From Lachnospiraceae bacterium (GTDB lineage: Bacteria > Bacillota > Clostridia > Lachnospirales > Lachnospiraceae): a stretch of 56,831 bases of DNA. The notes under the pieces are model-generated. The model did no database searches. It saw only the letters and a list, made by a program, of their open reading frames with translations, and was not told where the DNA came from. Below, piece after piece: positions 17,851 through 56,831 of the stretch. The position numbers and the translations under genes are program-made. Positions within the stretch are counted from its first letter, which is position 1. Each line of letters begins with the position of its first letter. Location of the stretch: contig SVFT01000010.1 in the NCBI GenBank assembly GCA_015056735.1, forward strand, positions 1-56,831. Direction: 5' to 3'.

Positions 17851-18967
17851 AAAACTCGAGGTGTATTACAAGGGTGAGCCGGTTGGATATCTGGCCGAGA
17901 CGTCCGACCGCATGATCGCTTTTCAATACAGTGACACCTGGCTCAGGAATGGATTTGCAATCAGTCCTTTGTCGCTTCCGCTGGAAAGCGGCGTATTTAT
18001 TCCCCCTGAAAAGTGCCGCGAGCGATTCGACGGATTGTTCGGCGTGTTTGCGGATAGTCTCCCTGATAGCTGGGGGCAGCTTCTGCTTGAGCGCCATCTT
18101 GGAACGCTCGGGATCGATCGAGGCGATATCACGGCATTGGATCGACTTGCCTATATCGGCGGATCGGGGATGGGAGCGCTGGAATACTATCCTGCCAAGG
18201 AGACGGATTTTCGGATAGATGCCGCGGGGCTTAGTTTTGACCGGATCGCAGCTGAGTGCGAAAATCTTCTGGCCTCAAAGCCCTCTGATCAGCTTGATAT
18301 GCTATACCGGATGGGCGGTTCCAGCGGCGGTACGAGACCCAAGGTCCTGCTGCAGGATGGTGGCAAAGAATGGATCGTTAAATTCCCGGCCCCTCAGGAT
18401 CCTTTAATCTGCGGCAAGCGAGAGTATGATTATGCGCGGTGCGCTGCGGACTGTGGCATCATTATGACAGAAACGGCCCTGGTACCGTCTGATGTATGCG
18501 AAGGATATTTTAAGACGCTGCGTTTTGACCGGACAGGTAAGGAGAAGGTCTTCTGCATTACGTTTGCCGGCTTACTTGAAGCTGACTTTCGAGCACCGTC
18601 ATGCGACTACGGCACATACATGAAACTGATCCGTATGCTTACAAGGGATCACGCGGGTGACAAGGAACAGATGTATCGCATTATGTGTTTCAATATCCTT
18701 GCGCACAACCGGGACGATCACACGAAGAATTTTTCTTTCCTGTATACGGAAGAAAAAGGTTGGCATCTTGCGCCTGCATATGACCTGACATATAGTGATA
18801 CATATTGGGGCGAACAGACCACTTCCGTGAACGGAAAAGGGAAGAGTATTTCAGACGGGGATCTCATAAAAACAGGTACGGACGCAGGAATTCCCAAATC
18901 CCGCTGCCTGTCGATCCTGGAAGAGATCCGAGAAAAGGTCAAAACGCTTAACTGCTATTGGGGATAA
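17837..18967 (+). CDS. hipA: HipA-family serine/threonine kinase toxin
   Basis: A 376-residue protein with the HipA N-terminal subdomain (about 1-100) and kinase core: the Gly-rich phosphate-binding SSGGTRPK (162-169), the catalytic NRDDHTKN (291-298) and the metal-binding YDLTY near 315. HipA kinases phosphorylate targets such as glutamyl-tRNA synthetase and cause growth arrest. All key residues are present, so it appears functional. It is slightly shorter than E. coli HipA (440). GAGGAGG lies six bases before the ATG, inside hipB, which couples toxin to antitoxin translation. Its own target is unknown. Confidence 0.88.
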   Translation: MTGVRKLEVYYKGEPVGYLAETSDRMIAFQYSDTWLRNGFAISPLSLPLESGVFIPPEKCRERFDGLFGVFADSLPDSWGQLLLERHLGTLGIDRGDITALDRLAYIGGSGMGALEYYPAKETDFRIDAAGLSFDRIAAECENLLASKPSDQLDMLYRMGGSSGGTRPKVLLQDGGKEWIVKFPAPQDPLICGKREYDYARCAADCGIIMTETALVPSDVCEGYFKTLRFDRTGKEKVFCITFAGLLEADFRAPSCDYGTYMKLIRMLTRDHAGDKEQMYRIMCFNILAHNRDDHTKNFSFLYTEEKGWHLAPAYDLTYSDTYWGEQTTSVNGKGKSISDGDLIKTGTDAGIPKSRCLSILEEIREKVKTLNCYWG

Positions 18968-18969
18968 TG

Positions 18970-18978
18970 TGCTATGAT
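18970..18978 (+). promoter_or_regulatory. Extended -10 promoter of the PfkB gene
   Basis: TGCTATGAT (18970-18978) is an extended -10 element lying just after the hipA stop codon. No good -35 is seen at the usual distance. The start point would leave a leader of about 30 bases. Confidence 0.45.
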
Positions 18979-19017
18979 CGAACCATGTTGAATGAAAAAC
19001 GAAAAACGGAGTTTCCT

Positions 19018-19932
19018 ATGAAAAAGATCCTGTTCATCGGCTCAACGGTAGCCGATGTTATCATCCATATTGACCGCATGCCACGCACGGCAGAGGATGT
19101 TAATACTTCAGGCCAGACTGTAAGGCTTGGGGGCTGTGCATACAATGCGTTCCATGCATGCCGTCTGTTTGGCGTACCGGCCGTTTTGTTCTCTCCGGTC
19201 GGGACCGGCGTGTACGGTGATTTTGTAAGGAAAGCGCTCTCGGAGCGCGGCATTCAGTCCCCAATCCCGCCTGTGCAGAGGGACAACGGCTGTTGCTACT
19301 GCTTTATCGAGCCTTCGGGCGAGCGGACTTTTATCTGCCACCAGGAAGCGGAGTATTATTTTGAAAAGGAATGGTTTGACTGGGTCGATCGAAGTGAACT
19401 TGCAGGCGTGTATGCGTGTGGCCTTGAGATTCATGATAAGTCGACTGCGGGCAATATCGTATCGTTCCTGGAGTCTTTATATGACGTGCCGATCTACTTC
19501 GCGCCGAGTCCGCATATCTGCGAGATCGATGATACGATGATGGCAAGGATCCTGGCATGCCATCCGATCCTGCATGTAAACGAGCGTGAGGCAACAACTT
19601 TTGCCAAGAAGCTGGCGCGTATGCATGGTAAGACGGAGCCTGCCTCCATCGAAGATGCCGCGCAGATCCTGCAGGAGCAGACTTCCAATACCGTTATCAT
19701 CACGCTGGGTGCAGTCGGCGCGCTTCTTTGCGAGAACGGAAAGCGCACGCACATCCCCGGCGTTCCCGCTAAGCAGGTTGACACCACCGGCGCCGGCGAC
19801 TCGCACATCGGCAGTGTCATTGCGAGACGCTCCCTTGGCGACTCCTTCGAGGATGCCATCGCGGCAGCCAATCGCGTATCCGCCGCCGTCGTAGAACATG
19901 TCGGCGCCCAGATCGACAGCTTGCCGAAATGA
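19018..19932 (+). CDS. PfkB-family (ribokinase-like) sugar or nucleoside kinase
   Basis: A 304-residue kinase with the N-terminal family pattern ILFIGSTVADVIIHIDRMP and GGCAYNAFHACRLFG, and the catalytic DTTGAGDS (258-265), where the last Asp is the base. PfkB enzymes phosphorylate sugars, nucleosides or related polyols with ATP; the substrate cannot be predicted. ATG at 19018 has GGAG six bases upstream. The last codons and stop are part of a REP-like palindrome (19923 onward), so the C-terminus LPK was probably reshaped by that insertion. Confidence 0.82.
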   Translation: MKKILFIGSTVADVIIHIDRMPRTAEDVNTSGQTVRLGGCAYNAFHACRLFGVPAVLFSPVGTGVYGDFVRKALSERGIQSPIPPVQRDNGCCYCFIEPSGERTFICHQEAEYYFEKEWFDWVDRSELAGVYACGLEIHDKSTAGNIVSFLESLYDVPIYFAPSPHICEIDDTMMARILACHPILHVNEREATTFAKKLARMHGKTEPASIEDAAQILQEQTSNTVIITLGAVGALLCENGKRTHIPGVPAKQVDTTGAGDSHIGSVIARRSLGDSFEDAIAAANRVSAAVVEHVGAQIDSLPK

Positions 19933-20011
19933 GCCAGGGGGACGGGGTGCATGGCTCATTTCGGCCTGACGGTCGAAGATGAACCATGCACCCCGTCCCC
20001 TAGGCTCACAT
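19923..20011. repeat. REP/BIME-like inverted pair of palindromic units
   Basis: Unit one: perfect 14-base arms GCCGAAATGAGCCA (19923-19936) and TGGCTCATTTCGGC (19952-19965) around the G-rich core GGGGGACGGGGTGCA. Unit two (about 19979-20011) is the same kind of unit in inverse orientation with core TGCACCCCGTCCCC. Together they can form one long hairpin through the GGGGGACGGGGTGCATGG region. Related units occur at 50147-50180 and 51418-51503. Unit one contains the stop codon of the PfkB gene. Confidence 0.85.
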
Positions 20012-50018: not shown

Positions 50019-52508
50019 ATGAATAAGCCAATTCTATCAATAGGGATCCTTGTATCGGGTCCCTATTATCAGGTTAAGAAAACGATTGAATCGCTTGCGC
50101 CGATCCGGCGCGCGATCCCGTGCCAGCTGATCATCACCGACACCCGAATGAGCCAGGGGGACGGGGTGCTTGGTTCATCTTTCGATGCGCTCACAGCATA
50201 TTTGAAAAAAGAGGCGGATGTCTACGATACCTTCACGTGGGTCAACGACTTTGCCGCAGCGCGCAATGCGAATCTAAAGCATGCGACAGGCAAGTGGTAC
50301 CTGTACCTCGACGATGACGAGGTGCTCACGGAAGGTATCGAGGATTTTGTCGCCTTTTTTCGTGGGGATGAGATCGATGCGTACGACAGCGGCGAGTACA
50401 TCCAGCGTAACCATACGGACAGGACGGGCGTACACTACAATGATTACTATGTGCAGCGTATGAAGCGCCTGACGCCTGAAACAAGATTTGTCAGCAGGAT
50501 CCATGAGTATATGGTGCCGTACCCTGACCGCGTGGTCGTGTTCGGTCTCGTGGCGGATCATTATGGATACGTGTACGATACCGAGGAGGAGAAAACGGCG
50601 CATGCCAGGCGCAACCGCGATCTTCTGCTGGCGCTTAAGGCCGACGAGCCTGAAAATTTAAGGTGTCGCCAGCAGCTTCTTTTAGAAATGGCACACGATG
50701 CGGACCTTCCCGGATTTGCCGCGATGGCGCTGGAAAATCTCTCGCATATTCCGAGACATGATGAAAAGCACGAGATCCCGATGATCTGGGACCTCTACGG
50801 CGGCGCGGTTTACGGCCTTACACGGCTGCTCAGCCTGCCGGATGAAGAGGACGAGGAGGCGTGGCATCTTGACGGTATAGGGGAAAACGCAGCAGGCGGG
50901 AAGTCTGCCGACTCGTTGGATGCGGATCAAAACGGAACGGCCGGTCTGCTTGAAGAAATCGGTGTGGCCGACGGCCGGATGATCAGTTTTCCCAAATTGT
51001 ATGAAGCGATCGAACGTATCTGCCGGGAGGGCCTTGCCTACAAAGATGCCGGCAATATGATGAAAGCCATGATGGAGCGTGGCCTTGCGATCATGTATGC
51101 ACACGCGGGGCGATACGGCGATGCCGCGGCTGCGAGAGCACGGTTTGAAGCTTGCCGACTGGCGGCGCTTGCGGATACGAATGCGCTCCAGAGAGAGAAG
51201 ACGGCTTCTTTTATCATGCTTGCATCGAAGAACCCGTTTGCGGATCGGCAGTGGTTTTCGGGTGACTTTGGAGAAAAGGGTGCAGGCCTTAAGCCTCCAG
51301 TCCTCTCGATCGGCATGCTTGTTTCTGACAGCAAAGGAACGGCGAAGACGGCGCTTGATGCGCTCCGGTATCTTCGGAGCGTGCTGCCATGCGAGCTTGT
51401 TGTGACTGACACGCGCAAAATGAGCCAGGGGGGACGGGGTGCCTGGTCCATTTTGGAAAATGAGACAGAAATGGACCAGACACCCCGTCCCCGTGGCTCA
51501 TTTGTGTATCATACATTTGCGTGGTGCGATGACTTTGCAGCGGCGCGCAATGCGAACCTCGCGCAGGCGAGCGGCGAGTGGTACATGTTCCTGGATGATG
51601 ACGAGCTTCTGACGGATGTATCGAATCTGGTCGGATTTTTTGAGAGCGGCGCGTATCGGGATGCGGATGCGGGCGAGATCGTAATCCGCAGTTATGATGA
51701 CTACGAAAGAAGCGGTTATAGCGATGCGTGGCTTACGAGGCTCCGGAAGCGGACACCGGATCTGCATTTTGAAGACTGCATTCATGAGCATTTTGAGCCG
51801 CGGCCGGAACGATCTGTCCGAATCTCCGTGATCGCCGATCATTTCGGCTATGTCTATCCGGATGAGGCGGCCAGGCAGGCGCATATGAAACGGAACCGTG
51901 ATCTGCTCCTTAAGATGCTTGAAAAGGACCCAAAGAACCTTCGTGCGAGAGAGCAGATGCTTTTGGAATATGATACGGCGGGAGACTTCGAAGGGCTTCT
52001 TGCCTTTTCCAAGGAGTCGCTGGAGATCTCCAAAGGCATGACGGGGCGTTATGAGATTCCGTGCGTGTGGGCCTTTATGGGCGCCGGCGCAAGAGCATTG
52101 TCTGAACTGGAGCGATTCGAAGAGCTGGAAACGTGGTGCGAGACATGTCTTTCCGATGGAAGACTGGACGCGATGTGCAGAGGCCTTCTTCTTGGGACCC
52201 TTGCCGAGATCCGCTTTGGCGGGAAGCGCTACGAGAGTGCCCTAGCCCTGATCAAAGAATATGAAAAGGTCCATGATTCGGAGGATCCCGCAAGCGACTA
52301 CTACCATATGGAGGAAGGTGTACCGTTTATCGGCGCAGCCTTTTCTCGAGGGTGGACGGATCGGATCGGGAAAATGCGTGCGGAGTGCGAACAGCTTCTA
52401 TATATGAAGAAAGAACTCCTTGGCAGGATCGAAGCGCTGGAAAAAGCAGGGCAGCAGGATGTTGCGTCCACGCTTCGGGCGCAGCTGGCACAGCTTTTCT
52501 GCGATTAA
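50019..52508 (+). CDS. Tandem glycosyltransferase family 2 protein with REP-derived insertions
   Basis: An 829-residue protein made of two homologous halves, each a GT2 domain plus a helical TPR-like tail (about 1-370 and 430-829). Domain one opens PILSIGILVSGPYY and has DDD in LYLDDDEVL near 97; domain two opens PVLSIGMLVSDSKG and has MFLDDDELL near 523, so both keep the metal-binding Asp cluster. After the ITDTR/VTDTR strand, the conserved GSTDGT-type loop and following helix are replaced by residues encoded by REP-like palindromes (50147-50180, residues about 43-54; 51418-51503, residues about 467-495). Its position between chaperones and flagellins suggests flagellin glycosylation. ATG 50019 lacks a strong ribosome binding site. 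Confidence 0.75.
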   Translation: MNKPILSIGILVSGPYYQVKKTIESLAPIRRAIPCQLIITDTRMSQGDGVLGSSFDALTAYLKKEADVYDTFTWVNDFAAARNANLKHATGKWYLYLDDDEVLTEGIEDFVAFFRGDEIDAYDSGEYIQRNHTDRTGVHYNDYYVQRMKRLTPETRFVSRIHEYMVPYPDRVVVFGLVADHYGYVYDTEEEKTAHARRNRDLLLALKADEPENLRCRQQLLLEMAHDADLPGFAAMALENLSHIPRHDEKHEIPMIWDLYGGAVYGLTRLLSLPDEEDEEAWHLDGIGENAAGGKSADSLDADQNGTAGLLEEIGVADGRMISFPKLYEAIERICREGLAYKDAGNMMKAMMERGLAIMYAHAGRYGDAAAARARFEACRLAALADTNALQREKTASFIMLASKNPFADRQWFSGDFGEKGAGLKPPVLSIGMLVSDSKGTAKTALDALRYLRSVLPCELVVTDTRKMSQGGRGAWSILENETEMDQTPRPRGSFVYHTFAWCDDFAAARNANLAQASGEWYMFLDDDELLTDVSNLVGFFESGAYRDADAGEIVIRSYDDYERSGYSDAWLTRLRKRTPDLHFEDCIHEHFEPRPERSVRISVIADHFGYVYPDEAARQAHMKRNRDLLLKMLEKDPKNLRAREQMLLEYDTAGDFEGLLAFSKESLEISKGMTGRYEIPCVWAFMGAGARALSELERFEELETWCETCLSDGRLDAMCRGLLLGTLAEIRFGGKRYESALALIKEYEKVHDSEDPASDYYHMEEGVPFIGAAFSRGWTDRIGKMRAECEQLLYMKKELLGRIEALEKAGQQDVASTLRAQLAQLFCD
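50147..50180 (+). repeat. Single REP-like unit inside the glycosyltransferase gene
   Basis: AATGAGCCA (50147-50155), core GGGGGACGGGGTGCT, TGGTTCATCT (50171-50180). Same family as 19923-20011. It is read in frame as about MSQGDGVLGSS. Confidence 0.85.
51418..51503. repeat. REP/BIME-like inverted pair inside the glycosyltransferase gene
   Basis: The left unit runs from AAATGAGCCA (51418-51427) to TGGTCCATTT (51444-51453) and the right unit is its inverse, AAATGGACCA (51469-51478) to TGGCTCATTT (51494-51503), with cores GACGGGGTG and CACCCCGTC. Together they form an ~85-base palindrome, yet the reading frame stays open. Confidence 0.88.
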
Positions 52509-52748: not shown

Positions 52749-53927
52749 ATGGTAGTACAACACAATATTACAGCTATGAATGCCAACAGAATGTTGGGCG
52801 TAACGACAGGAATGCAGGCGAAATCTTCTGAGAAGTTATCTTCCGGTTTTAAAATCAACCGAGCAGCAGATGATGCAGCAGGCTTAACTATATCCGAAAA
52901 GATGCGTAAACAGATCAGAGGTCTCGACCAGGCTTCCACCAACGCCAGCGACGGTGTTTCGGCAGTGCAGACAGCAGAAGGTGCATTAACCGAAGTACAC
53001 TCTATGCTTCAGCGTATGAATGAACTGGCAGTTCAGGCAGCGAACGGCACGAACAGTAAAGATGACCGCGAAGCCATCCAGGCGGAGATCGATCAGCTTA
53101 CAACTGAGATCGACCGTGTTGCTGAGACAACCAAGTTCAATGAGACGTACCTGTTAAAGGGTACCGACGCTACAAGCGGCACGACTACGAAAGCGATTAC
53201 TTTGAATGTACATGATGCAGGTATCAAGGGTCAGATGGCTGAGAAGCCCGCTGCCGACGGTTCCTACACATTCAAGATCGAAAACTTCGGCGAAGGCAAG
53301 ACAGTCAGCATTGCAGGTCAGACATTTAAGATTAACAGCACGAACACCAAGACTGATGGCTCTGAAGTAAATCTTGCAACAGCGAAAGATCTGGTAGCAA
53401 GAGCACTCAGAGAAGCAAACGAGATCGGCGGCGCTACACCGCAGATCGGTACCGTAGGCGATGACGGCGAAGTAAAAGTTACACCCGGCACAGTAACCGT
53501 AGCTAAAGCTCTTCAGTTCAACCTTCATGTGGGCGCCGATGCCGATATGACCAATAAGATCGGTGTTGAGATCGAAACCATGACATCCAGATATCTGGGC
53601 GTTGAAGGAATTGACGTAGTAGGTAAAGACGATGCAGTCGGCGGCACAACAGCAACCTATGCTATTGACGCGATCGCAGACGCTGTTGCCAAGGTCTCCG
53701 CGCAGAGATCCGCATTGGGTGCTATCCAGAACAGACTGGAGCACACGATTGCCAACCTCGACAACGTCGTTGAAAACACCACCGCAGCTGAGTCCCGTAT
53801 TCGCGATACGGACATGGCGAAAGAGATGGTTACCTACAGCAAGAACAACATTCTTGCACAGGCAGGCCAGTCGATGCTGGCGCAGGCTAACCAGAGCAAC
53901 CAGGGCGTTATGTCCTTATTACAGTAA
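52749..53927 (+). CDS. fliC: Flagellin 1
   Basis: A 392-residue filament subunit with conserved ends: VVQHNITAMNANRMLGVT and the D0/D1 pattern KLSSGFKINRAADDAAGL at the N-terminus, and RIRDTDMAKEMVTYSKNNILAQAG...LSLLQ-type end (here MSLLQ) at the C-terminus. The central domain (about 155-300) is shortened and diverges from flagellins 2 and 3. It starts 240 bases after the glycosyltransferase gene with a conserved leader. Exported by the flagellar apparatus with FliS. Confidence 0.95.
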   Translation: MVVQHNITAMNANRMLGVTTGMQAKSSEKLSSGFKINRAADDAAGLTISEKMRKQIRGLDQASTNASDGVSAVQTAEGALTEVHSMLQRMNELAVQAANGTNSKDDREAIQAEIDQLTTEIDRVAETTKFNETYLLKGTDATSGTTTKAITLNVHDAGIKGQMAEKPAADGSYTFKIENFGEGKTVSIAGQTFKINSTNTKTDGSEVNLATAKDLVARALREANEIGGATPQIGTVGDDGEVKVTPGTVTVAKALQFNLHVGADADMTNKIGVEIETMTSRYLGVEGIDVVGKDDAVGGTTATYAIDAIADAVAKVSAQRSALGAIQNRLEHTIANLDNVVENTTAAESRIRDTDMAKEMVTYSKNNILAQAGQSMLAQANQSNQGVMSLLQ

Positions 53928-54214: not shown

Positions 54215-55384
54215 ATGGTAGTACAACACAACATTACAGCTATGAATGCCAACAGAATGTTGGGCGTAACTACGGGGACACAGGCGAAGTCTTCTGAGAA
54301 GTTATCTTCCGGTTATAAGATCAACCGTGCAGCAGATGATGCAGCGGGCTTGACGATTTCCGAAAAGATGCGTAAGCAGATCAGAGGCCTTGACCAGGCT
54401 TCCACAAACGCACAGGACGGTGTATCCGCAGTGCAGACAGCAGAAGGTGCTCTTACAGAAGTACACTCCATGCTGCAGCGTATGAATGAACTGGCAGTTC
54501 AGGCAGCAAACGGCACGAACAGCAAAGATGACCGCGAAGCCATCCAGGCAGAGATCGATCAGCTCACAACTGAGATCGACCGTGTTGCAGAGACAACCAA
54601 GTTCAACGAGACATACCTGTTAAAAGGTACAGATGCGAAGTCCAACAACACCAAGACGATCACATTGAATGTACACGATGCAGGCATCAAAGGCACCATG
54701 GGTGACAAGGATGCAACAGGCAAGTACGCATTCACGATCGACAACTTCGCTGAAGGCAAGACTGTTACGATCGCAGGTGAGACCTTTAAGATCAACAGCA
54801 CGAACACCAAGACTGACGGCTCCGAGAAGTCTCTTACAGATGCGACAGCACTTGCTAAGAAGGCACTCGAAGATGCAAACAAGATCGGCGGCGCTACACC
54901 GACAGTTACAGCAGGTAGCACAGGTGTATTTAACATCACACCCGGTACTGTAACCGTAGCGAAGGCTCTGAACTTCAACCTTCACGTTGGTGCTGATGCA
55001 GATCTTACCAACAAGATCGGCGTTTCCATCGATACGATGAGCTCCAAGTTCCTCGGCATCGAAGGTATCGACGTAGTCGGCAAGGACGATGTAGTTGGTG
55101 GCACAACCGCTACATACGCGATCGATGCGATCGCAGACGCTGTTGCGAAAGTATCCGCACAGAGATCCGCACTCGGTGCTATCCAGAACCGTCTGGAGCA
55201 CACAATTGCCAACCTCGATAACGTAGTTGAGAACACCACAGCAGCTGAATCTCGTATCCGTGATACAGATATGGCTGAAGAGATGGTTGAGTACAGCAAG
55301 AACAACATTCTTGCACAGGCAGGTCAGTCGATGCTGGCTCAGGCTAACCAGTCCAACCAGGGCGTTCTGTCTCTGCTTCAGTAA
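54215..55384 (+). CDS. fliC: Flagellin 2
   Basis: A 389-residue flagellin with the same ends as flagellin 1 and a different central domain (about 155-300). The protein equals flagellin 3 over the whole part visible; the genes differ by seven synonymous bases in the first 175 nucleotides only and are identical from 54389 on. The stop codon lies in the hairpin 55381-55400. Confidence 0.95.
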   Translation: MVVQHNITAMNANRMLGVTTGTQAKSSEKLSSGYKINRAADDAAGLTISEKMRKQIRGLDQASTNAQDGVSAVQTAEGALTEVHSMLQRMNELAVQAANGTNSKDDREAIQAEIDQLTTEIDRVAETTKFNETYLLKGTDAKSNNTKTITLNVHDAGIKGTMGDKDATGKYAFTIDNFAEGKTVTIAGETFKINSTNTKTDGSEKSLTDATALAKKALEDANKIGGATPTVTAGSTGVFNITPGTVTVAKALNFNLHVGADADLTNKIGVSIDTMSSKFLGIEGIDVVGKDDVVGGTTATYAIDAIADAVAKVSAQRSALGAIQNRLEHTIANLDNVVENTTAAESRIRDTDMAEEMVEYSKNNILAQAGQSMLAQANQSNQGVLSLLQ

Positions 55385-55671: not shown

Positions 55672-56831
55672 ATGGTAGTACAACACAACATCACAGCTAT
55701 GAATGCCAACAGAATGTTGGGCGTAACAACAGGAACACAGGCGAAGTCTTCTGAGAAGTTATCTTCCGGTTATAAGATCAACCGTGCAGCAGATGATGCA
55801 GCAGGCTTGACGATTTCCGAAAAGATGCGTAAACAGATCAGAGGTCTTGACCAGGCTTCCACAAACGCACAGGACGGTGTATCCGCAGTGCAGACAGCAG
55901 AAGGTGCTCTTACAGAAGTACACTCCATGCTGCAGCGTATGAATGAACTGGCAGTTCAGGCAGCAAACGGCACGAACAGCAAAGATGACCGCGAAGCCAT
56001 CCAGGCAGAGATCGATCAGCTCACAACTGAGATCGACCGTGTTGCAGAGACAACCAAGTTCAACGAGACATACCTGTTAAAAGGTACAGATGCGAAGTCC
56101 AACAACACCAAGACGATCACATTGAATGTACACGATGCAGGCATCAAAGGCACCATGGGTGACAAGGATGCAACAGGCAAGTACGCATTCACGATCGACA
56201 ACTTCGCTGAAGGCAAGACTGTTACGATCGCAGGTGAGACCTTTAAGATCAACAGCACGAACACCAAGACTGACGGCTCCGAGAAGTCTCTTACAGATGC
56301 GACAGCACTTGCTAAGAAGGCACTCGAAGATGCAAACAAGATCGGCGGCGCTACACCGACAGTTACAGCAGGTAGCACAGGTGTATTTAACATCACACCC
56401 GGTACTGTAACCGTAGCGAAGGCTCTGAACTTCAACCTTCACGTTGGTGCTGATGCAGATCTTACCAACAAGATCGGCGTTTCCATCGATACGATGAGCT
56501 CCAAGTTCCTCGGCATCGAAGGTATCGACGTAGTCGGCAAGGACGATGTAGTTGGTGGCACAACCGCTACATACGCGATCGATGCGATCGCAGACGCTGT
56601 TGCGAAAGTATCCGCACAGAGATCCGCACTCGGTGCTATCCAGAACCGTCTGGAGCACACAATTGCCAACCTCGATAACGTAGTTGAGAACACCACAGCA
56701 GCTGAATCTCGTATCCGTGATACAGATATGGCTGAAGAGATGGTTGAGTACAGCAAGAACAACATTCTTGCACAGGCAGGTCAGTCGATGCTGGCTCAGG
56801 CTAACCAGTCCAACCAGGGCGTTCTGTCTCT
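55672..56831 (+). CDS. fliC: Flagellin 3, cut by the window end
   Basis: 386 complete codons are visible; by comparison with flagellin 2 only the last three codons and the stop are missing. The protein is identical to flagellin 2 over its visible length, with a 986-base stretch (55846-56831) identical in DNA to 54389-55374. Its promoter and leader differ from those of flagellin 2, so it is a separate transcription unit. Confidence 0.95.
   Translation, partial: MVVQHNITAMNANRMLGVTTGTQAKSSEKLSSGYKINRAADDAAGLTISEKMRKQIRGLDQASTNAQDGVSAVQTAEGALTEVHSMLQRMNELAVQAANGTNSKDDREAIQAEIDQLTTEIDRVAETTKFNETYLLKGTDAKSNNTKTITLNVHDAGIKGTMGDKDATGKYAFTIDNFAEGKTVTIAGETFKINSTNTKTDGSEKSLTDATALAKKALEDANKIGGATPTVTAGSTGVFNITPGTVTVAKALNFNLHVGADADLTNKIGVSIDTMSSKFLGIEGIDVVGKDDVVGGTTATYAIDAIADAVAKVSAQRSALGAIQNRLEHTIANLDNVVENTTAAESRIRDTDMAEEMVEYSKNNILAQAGQSMLAQANQSNQGVLS

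Follow-up and report, generated by a model that had tools for sequence, protein, structure and literature searches.

A family of short palindromic, REP-like repeats has entered a two-domain GT2 glycosyltransferase gene at the homologous loop of each half in two Lachnospiraceae genomes, and the units inside the gene are in each genome of the type that prevails among the host's other copies. The gene keeps an open frame and evolves under purifying selection outside the loops, and its two repeat sites are among a larger set of repeat sites that the two genomes share. We consider it rather probable that the insertion is old, that the loop tolerates it, and that changes of type in the repeat family have since overwritten it where it stands without loss of phase. 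The stretch of DNA analyzed (the window) comprises 56,831 nucleotides of a Lachnospiraceae bacterium (GCA_015056735.1, contig SVFT01000010.1), and the following features of it are used below.

50019 to 52505, plus strand: gene of a two-domain GT2 glycosyltransferase, GmaR/SunS-like (PF00535 profile, sequence matches to GmaR and SunS)
50147 to 50182, plus strand: single REP-like unit in half one, encoding MSQGDGVLGSSF after TDTR (repeat model E 1.1e-8)
51418 to 51455, plus strand: half-two inverted pair, left unit, encoding KMSQGGRGAWSIL (model E 3.2e-7)
51468 to 51503, minus strand: half-two inverted pair, right unit, approximately EMDQTPRPRGSF in the sense of the gene (model E 1.0e-7)
51415 to 51506, plus strand: whole inverted pair of half two, a 92-nt hairpin that stands in for about 14 canonical loop and helix residues
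19927 to 20010, no strand assigned: second inverted pair of the repeat family in the window; it supplies the TGA that terminates ORF 18958-19932, the usual type of place

The gene encodes in a single open frame a protein of 829 amino acids with two GT2 halves. PF00535 (GT2) is detected in two stretches of this protein by a Pfam scan, the profile match having an E-value of 2.5e-13 (50.7 bits with a cut-off of 23.3; best stretch 74-157). The solved structures nearest in sequence are GmaR (22ao, E 2.6e-9) and SunS (7msp, E 1.4e-6), and with TIGR04195, the model for SunS peptide S-glycosyltransferases, the protein reaches 40.6 bits, below the equivalog cut-off of 350. Each half contains a DDD motif (YLDDDEV and FLDDDEL) and an IHE motif is present as well. 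Upstream of the gene lie ORFs matching FliD and FliS together with an ORF with a sub-cut-off match to FlgN, and flagellin genes are located downstream. Only this flagellin neighbourhood and the similarity to GmaR point to a putative role as flagellin glycosyltransferase. The products of two tandem flagellin genes (window 54215-55384 and 55672-56829, the second of which exits the window) are identical across the 386 residues seen, and a third, divergent flagellin gene (52749-53927) adjoins this pair.

The preliminary description of this DNA had placed a single repeat unit in half one and an inverted pair in half two (51418-51503) within an open frame with intact DDD motifs, and this arrangement is confirmed in all its parts. 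Its claim that the peptide is repeat-encoded is borne out too, as the three units are recovered, at the E-values listed above, by a repeat model built without them (31 copies, sequence only). The unit in half one itself encodes about 12 residues. The two units of half two are separated by 12 nt, and as RNA the pair folds at -63.8 kcal/mol (z -9.9). Because the left unit contains one extra G, giving a 3-nt spacer, its frame departs from that of half one after MSQG; six G before ACGG are also seen in 2 of 59 other window-genome copies, there, as we read them, by base change at the usual spacer length. The units of the two halves are positioned within one codon of each other, and among 68 sequence-fetched copies of the window genome only the three in this gene have homologous domain sequence on both sides.

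The site corresponds, as had been claimed, to the DTG(STDxT) loop of GT2 domains: GmaR and SunS can be aligned across it with a canonical relative from the genus. In contrast to GmaR, which reads DTGSTDST at the loop, the 829-aa protein has two such domains and both read TDTR plus a repeat-encoded stretch and not a DTG-type loop. The preliminary description had named the same peptide in orthologues lacking the repeat family as evidence that would speak against it; the insert is absent from all 39 related domains compared (37 loci). The residue after T is G in 31 and R in 0 of these 39 domains, and their stretch from DT to W..DF measures 21-24 residues (21 in L116 and L121). The corresponding stretch of the window gene counts 31 residues in half one and 36 in half two, and that of the orthologous gene introduced below 47 and 18, respectively; TDTR is found in all four domains. 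About 10 residues have been added to half one of the window gene and its tail, DALTAYLKKEADVYDTFT, still spans the canonical loop and helix. Half one, with 31 residues versus 21-24 in relatives, has thus gained the unit ahead of a stretch that is essentially intact. Half two lacks about 14 canonical residues in both species. The claim that the peptide replaces the loop in both halves therefore holds for half two, whereas half one shows an insertion. The segment of the helix that follows the DTG loop, as expected from the family, would be retained in half one and lost in half two. In a tree of 43 rows with the loop omitted, the four domains (two halves in two species) form one clade (100/99.8), so that, within the set of genomes sampled, the domain duplication can be assigned to this lineage. 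Elsewhere in the family there are further two-domain genes (L131).

The repeat unit of the window genome is approximately AAATGAGCCAGGGGGACGGGGTGCNTGGYYCATTTT, a 36-nt hairpin (z -5.8). Its core GGGGACGGGGT, allowing at most one mismatch, occurs five times in the window, each time exactly, compared to a mean of 0.39 and a maximum of 3 in 100 shuffles, and the exact 12-mer GGGGACGGGGTG is present 34 times in the window genome versus 0 times for the reversed control. When 150 of the 272-881 candidates per genome were scored with the model at E <= 0.05, at least 69 matches were obtained in the window genome, at least 38 in its nearest relative and none in eight other genomes of the genus. The exact 11-mer is found a single time in each of two of these eight genomes, no more often than its reversed control (0-2). 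The window genome has one Y1_Tnp gene (40.4 bits, cut-off 23), scoring 76.5 bits with the model of REP-associated tyrosine transposases (NF047646), under its cut-off of 80. This RAYT-type transposase gene (L070 8277-9047) has repeat units on both sides. A search for a RAYT in the nearest relative and the eight other genomes found none, which for the former, 83% complete, is not evidence of absence. The family shows the traits of REPs and REPINs: a short palindrome in many copies that mostly lie outside genes, a RAYT gene flanked by units, and inverted doublets, namely the pairs at 51418-51503 and 19927-20010 of the window and further pairs among the model matches. By eye, the terminal GTAG/CGTC tag is absent from the listed units, which have the ends AAATGAGCC...GGCTCATTT and carry CGTC mid-unit on the complementary strand, and for this reason we name them REP-like and not GTAG/CGTC REPs.

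Many copies are situated at the ends of genes. Of 54 window-genome copies whose foot is TGAG, 16 terminate an open frame of 120 codons or more (one of the 16 being the antisense frame of an in-gene copy), versus 27 of 1080 TGA picked at random from the loci concerned; the numbers for the nearest relative are 3 of 17 versus 9 of 340. At some sites where the repeat supplies the stop codon, a terminator-like stretch follows the repeat, as judged by eye. The repeat is open in 2 to 5 of the six frames, and in 4 or 5 for 43 of the 55 full-length window-genome copies. In both species a sequence starting with CAATGTCATTTAGATA... is found after a broken repeat core (L070 9100-9178, L022 1-73, L103 1-36 and L077 after 1660), often at contig ends; it may represent an insertion element that targets the repeat.

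The nearest relative of the window genome is a Lachnospiraceae MAG (hereafter G009, probably the same genome as L086), which is fragmented (about 200 contigs, 83% complete, 7% contamination) and supplies the only orthologue found, so that this form of the gene is present in 2 of 10 genomes of the genus. Depending on the method, the two genes share 76-81% identity (81%, 77% and 76%). G009 carries repeats at both gene sites, in the variant of its own host and in copy numbers that differ from the window gene (G009:C136 2512-2588, two units, and 1255-1289, one unit; both flanks align to the window gene). In half one, two tandem units 42 nt apart are read EPSGTG in G009, versus one unit read QGDGV in the window gene, resulting in the peptides LEPSGTGLMAHFSGDEPSGTGSVAHFSH and MSQGDGVLGSSF, respectively. 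The tract of G009 is here 48 nt longer, which we read as 42 nt of tandem unit and 6 nt of small indels flanking the core; consequently, the inside frame shifts and the flanks are in phase. At the half-two site of G009 there is a single worn unit (KMSSEGRGSGL) versus the inverted pair of the window gene, with 11 versus 29 repeat-encoded residues; the codon at which the units start, and their frame, are common to both species (AAA ATG AGC).

The encoded peptide thus differs between the species in sequence and length at both sites, and at half one also in frame. The notion of a creation of protein sequence, as put forward initially, is literally correct in that the peptide is repeat-encoded, but the peptide is not the same in the two species at either site. 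The feature that is kept is an open, in-phase loop rather than a particular peptide. This bears on the idea that the repeat-encoded segment was recruited for a function such as acceptor choice, donor choice or a protein contact. Repeat-encoded residues in both halves of both species and purifying selection on the rest of the gene would agree with such an adaptive peptide, yet its sequence is not conserved (MSQGDGVLGSSF versus LEPSGTGLMAHFSGDEPSGTGSVAHFSH in half one, 29 versus 11 residues in half two), and we regard the idea as quite improbable. It is still harder to believe that the inverted pair persists by virtue of a strong hairpin that tunes transcription or translation of the second half: the stability of the window pair is what such an effect would predict, but no equally strong hairpin is conserved in G009, where the half-two unit folds at -17 kcal/mol (z -2.4) and half one has a z of -0.6.

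Outside the loops, dN/dS between the window gene and its G009 orthologue is 0.118 over 778 codons (Nei-Gojobori; with dS about 1 this value is rough). The two GT halves give 0.103 and 0.102, and three neighbouring flagellar ORFs 0.02 to 0.11. The gene thus looks to be in use and under purifying selection outside the loops. The suggestion that the repeats are damage tolerated in a gene that is being lost draws on the alteration of the DTG loop in both halves, at a position where 31 of 39 relatives have G after T. Against it, dN/dS is about 0.10 in both halves, the frame is open in both species, and the DDD and IHE motifs are kept. The phase of decay considered in the preliminary description is accordingly not what these values indicate, and we judge loss of the gene highly improbable.

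The type of the in-gene units follows the host. With the gene copies included, the core GGGGACGGGGT is followed by G in 34 of 40 window-genome copies versus 1 of 24 copies of G009. By mean alignment score to non-gene copies, all in-gene units (6 of 6) are closer to the other copies of their own host. In a leave-one-out comparison from which non-gene copies shorter than 28 nt were dropped (6 of 65 in the window genome, 9 of 35 in G009), 52 of 59 window-genome copies and 24 of 26 copies of G009 fit their own host, and 7 of 59 and 2 of 26, respectively, fit the other. Among the loci fetched, 15 of 30 repeat clusters of G009 have a flank that matches a repeat site of the window genome. Two of these 15 were dropped as they match only via a short shared repeat (24-36 nt), leaving 13 shared sites, i.e., the two in the gene and 11 outside it. 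Own-host type is found in both genomes at 8 of the 11 sites outside the gene, although at several of the eight the G009 unit is short (20-25 nt) and the score difference small (-1.2 to -3.5). The three exceptions are C156/C22 (both leaning to G009-type or neutral), C166/C2 (both of G009-type) and C158/C13 (both of window-genome type). Most shared junctions rest on one aligned flank, with both flanks aligned at C127, C132, C156 and C73 and at the two gene sites, and the shared junctions could partly reflect reinsertion beside stop codons, a preferred place. In G009:C158 (L105 1-250), a stretch 98.6% identical to one window-genome locus is joined at a repeat to a gene orthologous to another locus, which is possibly a chimera or a repeat-mediated exchange.

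Units of host type in both species would also be obtained if each species' own family had independently hit the same loops, either as a tolerant place or as a preferred DNA target. The different frame in half one and the copy numbers of one versus two (half one) and two versus one (half two) fit such independent insertions as well. However, the half-two units share their start codon and frame across the species, and sites outside the gene are also common to both genomes, for which inheritance is the simplest explanation. We therefore hold independent insertions to be unlikely.

Under replacement in place of an old insertion, a RAYT-associated REP-like repeat would have inserted into the DTG loop of the GT2 domain prior to the split of the window species and G009, with both sites filled by that time. 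Its persistence there would be due to the loop, which is presumably exposed and can accommodate additional residues, and to the repeat being open in most frames. The in-gene units would then track the repeat population of their genome instead of drifting as private sequence: when the family changes type in a lineage, they would change too, like most shared units elsewhere, and small indels would hold the downstream reading frame. The agent of the replacement may be RAYT action or recombination between units. The history may have begun with one insertion before the domain duplication or with two after it, and later exchange between units would mask which. With somewhat more doubt than conviction, we extend this to the proposal that concerted evolution of mobile repeats overwrites codons, such that the ruling repeat type would set the loop sequence in both domains and selection would keep the phase only. 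The data suggest that a protein whose gene has remained in use is written in part by a selfish repeat.

Counting only copies located 25 residues or more within an open frame of at least 130 codons, 27 of the 106 sequence-fetched matches remain (107 listed in both genomes, the one without sequence being C6:602-625 of the window genome): six in the glycosyltransferase gene of the two species and 21 in 16 other ORFs. A Pfam scan of these 16 ORFs (at least 130 aa) yielded matches in four. The ORFs in L011, L068 and L070 were rejected as further in-domain cases, the repeat being located upstream of the Pfam domain, and no Pfam domain extends across the repeat in the other window-genome ORFs of at least 130 aa that span a copy. 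As far as these scans reach, the glycosyltransferase gene is the only one found in the window genome with a repeat inside a conserved domain. In a GT4 gene of G009 (L077, G009:C53 1467-1490; model E 2.8e-5) a repeat-like SHGGTGLMVHV is found versus KDGETGLLVPV, of the same length, in the window genome. It was not accepted as a clear overwrite, with 29 of 44 bases agreeing with the window-genome gene versus 79% around the stretch, and either overwrite or convergence may have produced it.

Nunvar and colleagues are said to have tied switches of REP type to orthologous RAYTs. In the orthoswitch described for fluorescent pseudomonads and stenotrophomonads, the REP type linked to an orthologous RAYT changes between relatives, with the new type spreading and perhaps displacing the old one in part, by a mechanism only open to speculation (PMC3686654). 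Whereas old copies stay and decay in the orthoswitch model as set out there (PMC3686654), the units at shared sites in the two Lachnospiraceae, including those in the gene, are mostly of the host's current type. Replacement in place would account for these units and for the orthoswitch data alike.

In-frame palindromes are already known from Rickettsia genes, and REPs from inside the genes of several species (PMC3733652). The Rickettsia RPEs are palindromic, about 150 bp long and in frame in genes of likely functional proteins, with a conserved peptide (PMC10969869), and RPE-4 and RPE-6 are equated with CGTC REPs (PMC3733652). The likeness to our case lies in palindromic repeats in frame inside genes (PMC10969869, PMC3733652), but the Lachnospiraceae unit is 36 nt long, tied to a RAYT and read in several frames, and its peptide, unlike that of the RPEs as described (PMC10969869), is not conserved. 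GTAG/CGTC REPs occur singly or paired inside genes, with 20-30 residues encoded by dimers or groups; in two Xanthomonas species, differing REPs occupy roughly the same position in recB, and REP ends often provide stop codons (PMC3733652). Single or paired units within genes and unit ends that supply stop codons are shared with our family; its differences from the REPs in that account are the lack of an end tag, the Lachnospiraceae host, the location in the homologous loop of both domain copies, and the examination of host-matched type (PMC3733652). In the open-licence literature, in the text accessible, no report of such a repeat in a glycosyltransferase or in Lachnospiraceae was found. New are a RAYT-tied repeat in Lachnospiraceae, its presence in the homologous loop of both halves of an enzyme, and the host-matched type at sites shared by two species.

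These genomes serve as a readable natural experiment on changes of type in REP populations that hold their genomic places, a process whose mechanism is described as speculative (PMC3686654). The protein frame acts here as a sensitive recorder: because no replacement may disturb the phase, the units within the gene can show how long the replaced tract is and where it is bounded. The case also bears on the extent to which mobile palindromes contribute protein sequence outside Rickettsia, and it suggests that a GT2 enzyme can have the DTG loop of both its domains displaced while its gene stays under purifying selection.
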